DNA of 41,051 bases from Erythrobacter sp. (GTDB taxonomy: Bacteria > Pseudomonadota > Alphaproteobacteria > Sphingomonadales > Sphingomonadaceae): contig JASJDE010000013.1 in the NCBI GenBank assembly GCA_030065195.1, positions 1 through 41,051 on the forward strand, written 5' to 3'. The position numbers and the translations under genes are program-made. The number at the start of each line of letters is the position of its first letter. The stretch's first letter is position 1. Positions 8,290-11,001 of this stretch are shown in pieces. Below the pieces are notes generated by a model that did not search any database, was not told where the DNA came from, and saw nothing but the letters and a program-made list of their open reading frames with translations.

Positions 8290-8477
8290 CTAAACTCTTG
8301 TCCTGTTCGAGAGTATGGCGCTAAGGGCGCGCGCAAGTTTTGCGGTGGCATCGGGCCCCGCGGATCATGCGCGCGCTAACAGGGCAAGACCTGCATTTTG
8401 TCAAGTCGCGCACCTCTTACAAAACGGGGCTGGCAGCAGCCCGAGAGCGGCACTCCGCTCAAACAGACGAAGAAGAC

Positions 8478-9680
8478 ATGAAGATACACGACCTGATTAC
8501 CACCACCGACGCGCTGGCCGATTTGTGCGAGCGACTGGCGAAATCCGAATTCGTCGCCGTCGACACCGAGTTCATGCGCGAGAACACCTACTGGCCGGAA
8601 TTGTGCCTGGTGCAGATCGCCAACACCGAAGAAGCTGCTGCCGTAGATCCGCTCGCCGAAGGGCTGGACATGCAGCCGCTGCTCGACCTGCTGACCGACA
8701 ATGACGAGGTGCTGAAGGTCTTCCATGCAGGCGGTCAGGATGTCGAAATCATCGTCAACATGACGAAGAAGACGCCGACTCCGATCTTCGACACCCAAAT
8801 AGCGATGATGGCGATCAGCCAATCCGAACAGATCGGCTATGCCAACCTCGTCGACACCTGGCTCAACATCCAGATCGACAAGGGCGCGCGCTTCACCGAC
8901 TGGTCGCGGCGTCCGCTCACCGATCGCCAGATCGAATATGCGATCGGCGACGTGACCCATCTCTCGAAGATCTTTCCGAAGATTCTCAAGAAACTGATCA
9001 AGACCGAACGCGGCGCTTGGCTCGATGCCGAAATGGACAAACTCGCCGATGCCGAAAACTTCCTGATCGACCCCGACACCTCCTGGAAACGCATCCGTTC
9101 GCCCGGGCGCAATCCGCAGGTCCTCGGGCGGTTGAAGGCCCTTGCCGCGTGGCGCGAAGGCGAAGCGCAGCACAAGAACATTCCGCGCGGCCGGATCATG
9201 CGCGACGAAACGCTGGCCGATATTGCCTCGCATCCCCCCAAGAAGCAGGCAGACCTGTCCAAGGTTCGCGGGCTATCGGCCGCATGGAAGGACAACGATA
9301 TCGGCAAGCGCATGATGCGCGTCGTTGCCGAAGCGGAACCGCTCCCGAAGGACGAAATGCCCGAAAAGATGAAGCGCGGCGCGCCCCTGGGCAAGGAGGG
9401 AGCGCTGGTCGCCGACCTGCTCAAGCTCCTGCTCAAGATCCGCGCGCGGGAAATCGACGTCGCCGCGCGCCTGCTTACCCGGGCGGACGAAATGGAAGCG
9501 CTCGCCGCAGGCGTCCGCGACCTCAAGGTCTTGCAAGGCTGGCGCTACGACGTGTTCGGCAAGGACGCGCTCGAACTGGTCGAAGGCAAGCTCGCTTTCG
9601 CGGTCCAGAACGGCAAGCTCAAGATGACGCATATCGACGACATGCAGGCCAGCATGGAAGAAGCGCTGGCGGCGGAGTAG
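8478..9680 (+). CDS. rnd: Ribonuclease D
   Basis: DEDD exonuclease motifs FVAVDTEFMRENTYWPELCLVQIAN, VFHAGGQDVEII, QIEYAIGDVTHL plus HRDC-like C-terminus; ATG at 8478. Confidence 0.93.
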   Translation: MKIHDLITTTDALADLCERLAKSEFVAVDTEFMRENTYWPELCLVQIANTEEAAAVDPLAEGLDMQPLLDLLTDNDEVLKVFHAGGQDVEIIVNMTKKTPTPIFDTQIAMMAISQSEQIGYANLVDTWLNIQIDKGARFTDWSRRPLTDRQIEYAIGDVTHLSKIFPKILKKLIKTERGAWLDAEMDKLADAENFLIDPDTSWKRIRSPGRNPQVLGRLKALAAWREGEAQHKNIPRGRIMRDETLADIASHPPKKQADLSKVRGLSAAWKDNDIGKRMMRVVAEAEPLPKDEMPEKMKRGAPLGKEGALVADLLKLLLKIRAREIDVAARLLTRADEMEALAAGVRDLKVLQGWRYDVFGKDALELVEGKLAFAVQNGKLKMTHIDDMQASMEEALAAE

Positions 9681-9687
9681 CCATTAT

Positions 9688-9718
9688 CGTCATTGCGAGC
9701 GTAGCGAAGCAATCCATC
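9688..9718 (+). repeat. Left palindromic repeat, short form, upstream of GIY-YIG gene
   Basis: CGTCATTGCGAG-cgtagcg-AAGCAATCCATC; inner ATTGC/GCAAT inverted repeat; terminal 12-mers identical to the inverted copy at 10025-10088. Confidence 0.85.
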
Positions 9719-9722
9719 TCCC

Positions 9723-10022
9723 ATGCGTCCGAATTTTCAGCCAGCCGTTTACATGATGGCGAACCGCAAGAACGGCACAATTTACACTGGTGTCACTTCA
9801 GACTTGCCGAAACGGGCATGGGAGCATCGGCAAGGCCAGATCGACGGCTTCACCAAGCGATATGGATGCAAGCTTCTCGTTTGGTTTGAGTTTCACTCGA
9901 CTATGGAATCAGCCATCGAGCGGGAGAAACAAATCAAGGGCGGGTCGAGAAAGAAGAAGACTGGATTGATCGAGGCCGAGAACCCCGACTGGTTCGACCT
10001 TTTCACCGACTTGAACCGTTAG
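9723..10022 (+). CDS. GIY-YIG (URI-type) single-domain nuclease
   Basis: VYMMANRKNGTIYTGVTSDLPKRAWEHRQG...EREKQIKGGSRKKKTGLIEAENPDWFDLF, typical of small stand-alone GIY-YIG proteins. Confidence 0.93.
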   Translation: MRPNFQPAVYMMANRKNGTIYTGVTSDLPKRAWEHRQGQIDGFTKRYGCKLLVWFEFHSTMESAIEREKQIKGGSRKKKTGLIEAENPDWFDLFTDLNR

Positions 10023-10024
10023 GT

Positions 10025-10088
10025 GATGGATTGCTTGGAGGCCTACAGGCCGTCTGACGACTCCGCCTTGCGGCTCCTCGCAATGACG
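10025..10088 (-). repeat. Right palindromic repeat, long form, inverted relative to the left copy
   Basis: Minus strand CGTCATTGCGAG-gagccgcaaggcggagtcgtcagacggcctgtaggcctcc-AAGCAATCCATC; same 12-mers at both ends; the centre contains three short hairpins. Confidence 0.85.
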
Positions 10089-10104
10089 AAGTAAAGGCAG
10101 ACCG

Positions 10105-11001
10105 ATGTCCACCTACCTCCCCACCATCAAGCAGCTGCAATATCTCGTTGCGCTGCACGAGCACGGCCATTTCGGAAGGGCGGCCGATGCCAGCTTCGTG
10201 TCGCAGTCGACATTGTCGGCGGGGATTCGCGAGTTGGAATCGTTGCTGGGGGTGACCCTGGTCGAGCGCAGTCGGCGCGTGGTGCGCTTCACGGCACTGG
10301 GAGAGCAGGTCGTGGCCAAGGCCAACCGGCTGTTGCGCGAAGCCGAGGAACTGTCCGATCTCGTCCAGGCCGCAGGCACGCCATTGTCCGGAATACTGCG
10401 GATGAGCGTCATCCCCACCATCGCGCCGTTCATGCTTCCGCGCATCCTGCCCCGGCTGAAGAAGGAGCGCCCCGACCTGCAACTTATGCTGCGCGAGGAG
10501 ACCAGCCAGGATGCGGTCGAATCGCTCCAGCACGGTCGGGTCGATTGCGTGTTGCTGGCCCTTCCCTTCGACACCGGCGAAGTCGAATTCGAACACATCG
10601 CCGATGATCGCCTGTTCGTCGCCTTCCCCAAGGACGACCCGCGCAATCCTCCGGCGTCGATCCCACCGGATATGATCGATCAGGGGCGACTGCTGTTGCT
10701 GGAAGACGGGCATTGCCTGCGTGACCACGCCCTTGCGGCGTGCAACCGCAGCGAATTGCGCGCCAGCGCGTCGATGATTGGCACCAGCCTGCACACGCTG
10801 GTGCAGATGGTCGACAACGATCTGGGCCTCACCATGCTGCCCGAAATGGCGCTCGATGCGGGAATCCTTGCCAACACCGAGGTGGTCGCCCGGCCCGTCC
10901 AGAGCGACACGGCCAAACGGGAGATCGTGCTGGTATGGCGCAAGAATTCCCCGCGCGAGGCGGATTTCAGGCTGTTGGCAGAGGAACTGCGGGCAGGTTA
11001 G
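10105..11001 (+). CDS. oxyR: LysR-family hydrogen peroxide sensor OxyR
   Basis: LysR HTH (LQYLVALHEHGHFGRAADASFVSQSTLSAGIRELE) and LLLLEDGHCLRDHALAAC, matching the OxyR redox Cys pair with 9-residue spacing. Confidence 0.92.
   Translation: MSTYLPTIKQLQYLVALHEHGHFGRAADASFVSQSTLSAGIRELESLLGVTLVERSRRVVRFTALGEQVVAKANRLLREAEELSDLVQAAGTPLSGILRMSVIPTIAPFMLPRILPRLKKERPDLQLMLREETSQDAVESLQHGRVDCVLLALPFDTGEVEFEHIADDRLFVAFPKDDPRNPPASIPPDMIDQGRLLLLEDGHCLRDHALAACNRSELRASASMIGTSLHTLVQMVDNDLGLTMLPEMALDAGILANTEVVARPVQSDTAKREIVLVWRKNSPREADFRLLAEELRAG

Follow-up and report, generated by a model that had tools for sequence, protein, structure and literature searches.

Does a small nuclease gene that lies between two inverted copies of one palindromic repeat belong to that repeat as its enzyme, and do the three together make up a mobile unit? 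REPs are among the commonest repeats of bacterial genomes, and the GTAG superfamily of REPs has an enzyme. The CGTC superfamily "apparently lacks a dedicated transposase", and no association of its members with transposase genes was reported (Di Nocera et al. 2013, PMC3733652). The locus described here, in a window of 41,051 nucleotides from a draft Sphingomonadales genome (~87% complete), bears directly on this gap. Comparison with other genomes shows a recurrent REP-gene-REP layout, a matching of nuclease subclades to REP types, a co-occurrence of the two across genomes and an alternation of gene-bearing and gene-less sites; from these patterns we infer an enzymatic link between nuclease and repeat. 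In our estimate there is about a three in four chance that a GIY-YIG nuclease gene and two inverted cognate CGTC REPs together make up a compact element, selfish or semi-selfish, that spreads by the action of the nuclease.

A nuclease gene between two inverted REPs

The gene starts with ATG at 9723 and extends to 10022 on the plus strand, encoding a stand-alone GIY-YIG nuclease of 99 aa (Slx1-like/COG2827-type). The left REP (CGTCATTGCGAGCGTAGCGAAGCAATCCATC, 9688..9718, plus strand) ends 4 nt before the start codon, and the right REP (CGTCATTGCGAG...AAGCAATCCATC on the minus strand, 10025..10088), which is inverted, begins 2 nt after the stop. The first-pass annotation of this DNA had described the gene between inverted repeat copies, both spacings and terminal 12-mers common to the two copies; its coordinates and sequences are correct to the base, and the 12-mers match exactly. 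The left REP has its CGTC tag at 9688-9691, an ATTGC/GCAAT stem and a CCA tail, whereas the right REP has a longer central part with a GGCCTACAGGCC stem and carries its tag at the outer end (10085-10088). Short flanks separate the unit from its neighbors: on the left, 9681..9687, from the rnd stop to the left REP, which was compared with the closest relative (G327) and with empty junctions, and on the right, 10089..10104, from the right REP to the LysR-type gene. The neighbors themselves, both on the plus strand, serve as context only: rnd, an RNase D-type exonuclease gene (8340..9680; PF01612, PF00570), and a LysR-family regulator gene, the "oxyR" of the first-pass annotation (10105..11001; PF00126, PF03466). 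The GC content of the nuclease gene is 0.52 vs 0.61 and 0.64 in the neighboring genes.

Within the window, exact CGTCATTGCGAG is found only in the two REP copies that flank the nuclease gene. Elsewhere in the same genome there are two more complete inverted pairs, both without a gene (C11:18731-18815 and C147:35663-35785). When one mismatch is allowed, the 12-mer has 34 matches in this genome vs 18 for a reversed control; thus, many of the one-mismatch matches are due to chance. The nuclease had also been called single-copy, and in the window's genome, a draft ~87% complete, only one copy is present. In relatives, however, the nuclease is often multicopy, with up to 14 matches per genome, and therefore single-copy status is not a general property.

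Which kind of repeat is this? CGTC REPs were defined by a tag CGTC (or TGTC/CCTC), an 8-9 bp stem starting with AT and a 4-5 nt loop; the tag is unpaired, the tail is CCA-like, and the repeats form head-to-head dimers and are intergenic and found mainly in alphaproteobacteria (PMC3733652). The window repeat has the unpaired CGTC tag and the CCA-like tail, forms head-to-head dimers and is multicopy, with few copies in the window's genome and up to 178 in relatives. Its stem begins with AT and is only 5 bp long (ATTGC/GCAAT) with an internal loop in the predicted fold, and the left copy folds no better than shuffled DNA (z ~0); several other REP types met in this study fold as CGTC followed by an 8-bp stem and a 4-5-nt loop. 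Judged by tag, tail and dimeric arrangement, we assign the window repeat to the CGTC-tagged REPs.

The protein matches the Pfam model PF01541 (GIY-YIG) with an E value of 8e-15. This is the only domain found in the 99-aa open reading frame, and no NUMOD-type targeting domain was detected. The predicted catalytic residues are Y10, Y21, R31, H35, E68 and N87, which, together with G23, are 98-100% conserved in 159 REP-flanked homologs; the domain and the catalytic Y, Y, R, E and N place the protein in the GIY-YIG superfamily. The AlphaFold2 model (pLDDT 92.3) has UPF0213, the UvrC GIY-YIG domain and Slx1 as its nearest folds, and 1zg2 is the best PDB relative. Slx1 is a structure-specific enzyme that acts on branched DNA, so the similarity of the modeled fold to Slx1 would fit a hairpin or a cruciform as substrate. 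The 2006 survey of the GIY-YIG superfamily described one HsdR protein with a GIY-YIG domain "very recently inserted" and, in Erythrobacter litoralis, a GIY-YIG fusion (PMC1564403), both of which are consistent with GIY-YIG mobility; the main text of that survey never mentions palindromes or inverted repeats (PMC1564403).

Gene-bearing, gene-less and empty sites

Conservation of the gene at the rnd-oxyR junction in relatives without the repeat would have spoken against the first-pass annotation, by its own account. Instead, the gene is present at this junction in none of the 29 genus relatives, and the repeat-free junctions that it had advised looking for do exist, with no more than 18 bp between the two genes in 23 of the 29. 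The closest relative, G327, carries a gene-less head-to-head dimer of the window's REP at rnd-oxyR, and the right flank of this dimer is similar to that of the window unit (AAGTAAAGGCAGACCG / ATGTAGAGGCAGGGGCG comparison). In G307 (L174) we observed other CGTC-type REPs, of different types, at rnd-oxyR, which suggests that the junction may be an insertion hot spot.

The same kind of variation was seen elsewhere. Downstream of era, a gene-bearing unit is present in G283, and G261 has a dimer of a related REP with no gene in it; G308, read by eye, seems to have a GIY gene of another kind together with a further REP type. At the fnrL site of Sphingobium megaplasmids, the unit is present in 7 records, a two-tagged single palindrome in 2, and 2 are REP-free; in Sphingobium TYG64 and TYG74 a collapsed palindrome with a tag at both ends lies at the orthologous point. 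In Sinorhizobium meliloti Ak57 one unit is intact and a second keeps only the C-terminal end of the gene between the same REPs, while Sinorhizobium K101 has a single palindrome at that site (gltA-lpxB). Planktothrix plasmids have the gene between TGTC-tagged dimers and, elsewhere, an array of dimers without a gene. Compared in this way, orthologous sites are shown to occur in three alternating states: with the gene-bearing unit, with REP sequence but no gene (as a dimer or a single palindrome), or empty. As a side observation, species also differ after era (L307-L311) in their GIY/REP units or gene-less dimers, which marks a second hot spot.

One genome, G283, has the near-identical dispersed copies that are a trait of insertion sequences. 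Seven full-length units that hardly differ from one another occupy unrelated loci, and partial copies lie where contigs end. Among six of these copies dN/dS is ~0.30. The conserved block runs ~30-40 bp past the REPs into a second repeat that varies between copies; thus, what is conserved in this genome does not end at the REP tag. The extended block could reflect homing into resident repeats, or it could simply be a larger unit. The loci concerned (L277-L287) are embedded in this second variable repeat, GTTCAGCTATCGACCCCGGAACGGAC ... ACCACCCACTTCC, and at L287 a collapsed two-tagged palindrome occupies the same outer repeat. No clear target-site duplication was found at rnd-oxyR or at the Sphingobium site; the nearest relatives are too diverged.

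How might such a unit spread? The hairpin form of the tagged REP, whether extruded as a cruciform or present in single-stranded DNA at the replication fork, would be what the nuclease recognizes, and the nick would be made at the REP or right next to it. When the cut DNA is repaired or copied, the REP-bounded unit would spread, and gene-less dimers would spread in trans. Some of these dimers may be units that lost the gene by internal deletion; the S. meliloti copy, in which only a C-terminal end is left, points this way. CGTC REPs would then have a dedicated partner after all, contrary to what was thought. Given this mechanism, we lean slightly toward copying of the REP-bounded unit, and put the alternative, in which the gene homes into REP palindromes already resident, at a little less than an even chance. 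The data support a transposition-like and a homing-like spread almost equally, since a single palindrome can be read as an excision scar or as a homing target.

The strongest rival explanation overlaps with this one, being one of its two modes of spread. It holds that the nuclease is a homing endonuclease: an uninterrupted CGTC...GACG palindrome or a REP dimer is cut and gene conversion inserts the gene, so that the REPs are targets first and ends second. We consider this possible but rather unlikely as the whole account. The collapsed two-tagged palindromes at the orthologous point in TYG64, TYG74 and K101, and also L287, look like such targets, although a simple deletion between two REPs would leave the same palindrome, and the truncated S. 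meliloti copy shows decay in the direction from gene-bearing to gene-less. The intact gene-less dimer of G327 is at the very site of the window unit and the G283 units lie inside a second, variable resident repeat, as homing would have it; most relatives, however, have no REP at the window's site. Homing is also the classical role of GIY-YIG enzymes (PMC1564403), but in this protein a NUMOD-type targeting domain is missing. Phage-borne homing was rejected, with one weak match only among 50,697 phage records.

Pairing of nucleases with REP types

If the nuclease acts on its flanking REPs, are the two matched? Across 159 loci, nuclease identity correlates with REP similarity (Mantel rho 0.46, p 0.001). 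In 16 genomes with several nucleases, the left REP scored a median of 50 against the right REP of its own locus vs 11 when compared with those of the genome's other nuclease loci (340 comparisons). Host phylogeny does not explain this own-locus matching. By these scores, each nuclease subclade has its own REP type, also when copies within one genome are compared. Further REP types, such as the CGTCATTCCCGCG... and CGTCGCCCCGTG... types, are non-cognate to the window nuclease.

This pairing weighs against the view that the protein is a host repair enzyme, a back-up excision or structure-specific nuclease alongside which REPs have gathered for selective or neutral reasons. COG2827 proteins were indeed proposed as UvrC back-ups in Caulobacter, where one copy has an SOS box (PMC1839093), and the modeled fold resembles the UvrC domain as well as Slx1. 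A repair role nevertheless leaves unexplained that the copies of one genome each go with a REP type of their own, that positional conservation is missing, that copy numbers reach 14 and that near-identical copies are dispersed; we regard it as improbable.

Co-occurrence was assessed by comparing exact CGTCATTGCGAG counts with a nuclease search in 299 Sphingomonadales genomes, using E-value and identity cut-offs, set after viewing the hit lists, as a proxy for the subclade. All 30 genomes with a best nuclease match below 1e-35 contain the repeat (median 28.5 copies), and genomes without a nuclease match have a median of 0 copies. Within the window's genus, Spearman rho is 0.88, and a genus-stratified permutation gave p 2e-4. 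Seven genomes have at least 5 repeat copies but no detected nuclease. A second subclade behaves in the same manner: of the 10 genomes with that nuclease, 9 contain its exact REP core, CCCCGTGCTTGACACGGGG, vs 7 of 289 others (Fisher 2e-12). The parallel with REP/RAYT systems drawn in the first-pass annotation is thus supported by cognate pairing of subclade and REP type, by co-occurrence across genomes and by gene-less dimers at orthologous sites.

Could RAYT or other Y1 transposases instead move the REPs in trans, with the GIY gene as a passenger? Mobilization by other transposases was offered as a possibility by Di Nocera et al. (PMC3733652), but no Y1_Tnp match was found in the window's draft genome, and in repeat-rich Sphingomonadales genomes a Y1 transposase is present in just 8 of 35, whereas a GIY gene is present in all 35. 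Repeat number is not predicted by Y1 presence (p 0.56), which makes this explanation very unlikely.

REP flanking across genomes

Relatives of the nuclease came from two sources, the 299 Sphingomonadales genomes and a collection of named genomes, whose titles cover Pseudomonadota, Nitrospira, Chloroflexota, Melainabacteria, candidate phyla and others; several records of the collection are metagenome bins, and single taxonomic labels may be wrong (a 'Frankia' record looks like Bradyrhizobium). Three records filed as plasmids (CP090106.1, NZ_CP104131.1 and NZ_CP119140.1) look chromosomal in size and gene content. At 109 loci, the GTCATTGCGAG motif has a density of 6.7 per kb less than 200 bp from the gene vs 0.26 per kb more than 1 kb away, a 26-fold difference, and it is present at 92 of these loci. 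In a repeat-agnostic test, the 160 bp upstream of the gene were aligned to the reverse complement of ~180 bp downstream. A flanking inverted repeat above the 99th percentile of shuffles was found in 90% of 188 loci and, in a set spanning several phyla, in 65 of 79; usually it is a CGTC-type hairpin, of one of many types. In longer loci, the proportion is 89% vs 8.6% for random slots and 10.6% for other open reading frames. This is the comparison of GIY-YIG loci with random genes that the first-pass annotation had called for, and where it had feared an abundant repeat showing no preference for these genes, there is strong enrichment.

Chance flanking by common intergenic REPs, abundant as they are in some relatives, has next to no probability in the face of the 26-fold local density, the 89% vs ~10% in controls and the cognate types. 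Generic REP richness was likewise ruled out by the random-slot and open reading frame controls and by the cognate pairing within genomes.

Some GIY copies have no detectable REP (e.g., L264, L222 and L126). At L264 (1489-1779), a GIY-YIG gene without a detectable flanking REP is conserved in a Rhizobium tumorigenes plasmid and seven related plasmids; it is possibly a domesticated or decayed copy. Distant GIY-YIG genes in G327, G218 and G307 (L223, L262 and L263) lie between inverted copies of a common CTGAGCTTGTCGAAG repeat that has no CGTC tag, and nuclease/repeat pairing may extend to other families of palindromic repeats. In a Planktothrix agardhii plasmid (NZ_LR882964.1), a GIY-YIG unit (L265, 1486-1770) lies between an MmeI-type restriction gene and DISARM drmA. 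An anti-phage defense system was considered and rejected: there was no PADLOC match, and this Planktothrix copy is the one found beside a DISARM gene, the other loci that we looked at having no such setting.

Taken beyond the single locus, it seems probable that the entire CGTC-REP superfamily is mobilized by stand-alone GIY-YIG nucleases dedicated to it. Nuclease and repeats would then form a class of minimal mobile element, a nuclease of ~100 aa plus two hairpins, that is unrelated to all known transposases and is found in several phyla as many cognate pairs. For the superfamily left without an enzyme in 2013, the GIY-YIG nuclease is a strong candidate and the best yet. The question can be put to a direct test, since nuclease/REP pairs that match, sites with and without the gene, and a genome with several copies are all available. 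If the candidate holds, proteins that now carry no annotation beyond 'GIY-YIG nuclease' or 'excinuclease ABC subunit C', an abundant family, gain a role; proof of nuclease-driven mobility would make the unit a new class of minimal mobile element. We found no earlier report linking GIY-YIG nucleases to CGTC REPs in the open-license papers of PMC, which our search covered, and the novelty of the link is provisional.

Comparison with known systems

Each part of the unit has known counterparts. Previously described CGTC REPs have the same tag, stem-loop, tail and dimers; the REPs described here differ in that they flank a nuclease gene. Bacterial Slx1-like, COG2827-type and UPF0213-like proteins have the same minimal domain and catalytic residues, and are annotated only as predicted nucleases. 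Homing endonucleases of the I-TevI type share the catalytic domain and the coexistence of gene-bearing and gene-less alleles at one site, but the present unit has no intron, intein or targeting domain, and its flanks are inverted hairpins, not unique gene sequence. Like insertion sequences and MITEs, it has inverted ends, autonomous and gene-less forms and dispersed copies; unlike them, it has hairpin REPs as its ends, and no transposase or target-site duplication was found.

The closest likeness is to REP/RAYT systems (TnpA-REP, REPtrons and REPINs). On the one hand, in both cases an enzyme gene flanked by its matching repeat lies between inverted copies of a palindrome dispersed in the genome, gene-less dimers exist, and enzyme and repeat are specific to each other. 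On the other hand, REP/RAYT systems combine a GTAG tag with a Y1 (HUH) tyrosine transposase between the REPs, whereas the unit described here has neither and combines a CGTC tag with a GIY-YIG nuclease, which, unlike in REP/RAYT, is often multicopy and not conserved in position. REP cleavage has been demonstrated for TnpA-REP (PMC8266576); for the GIY-YIG nuclease, cutting is predicted from sequence comparison. We conclude that the locus is best described as a putative REP/nuclease unit, analogous to REP/RAYT and built around an unrelated enzyme.
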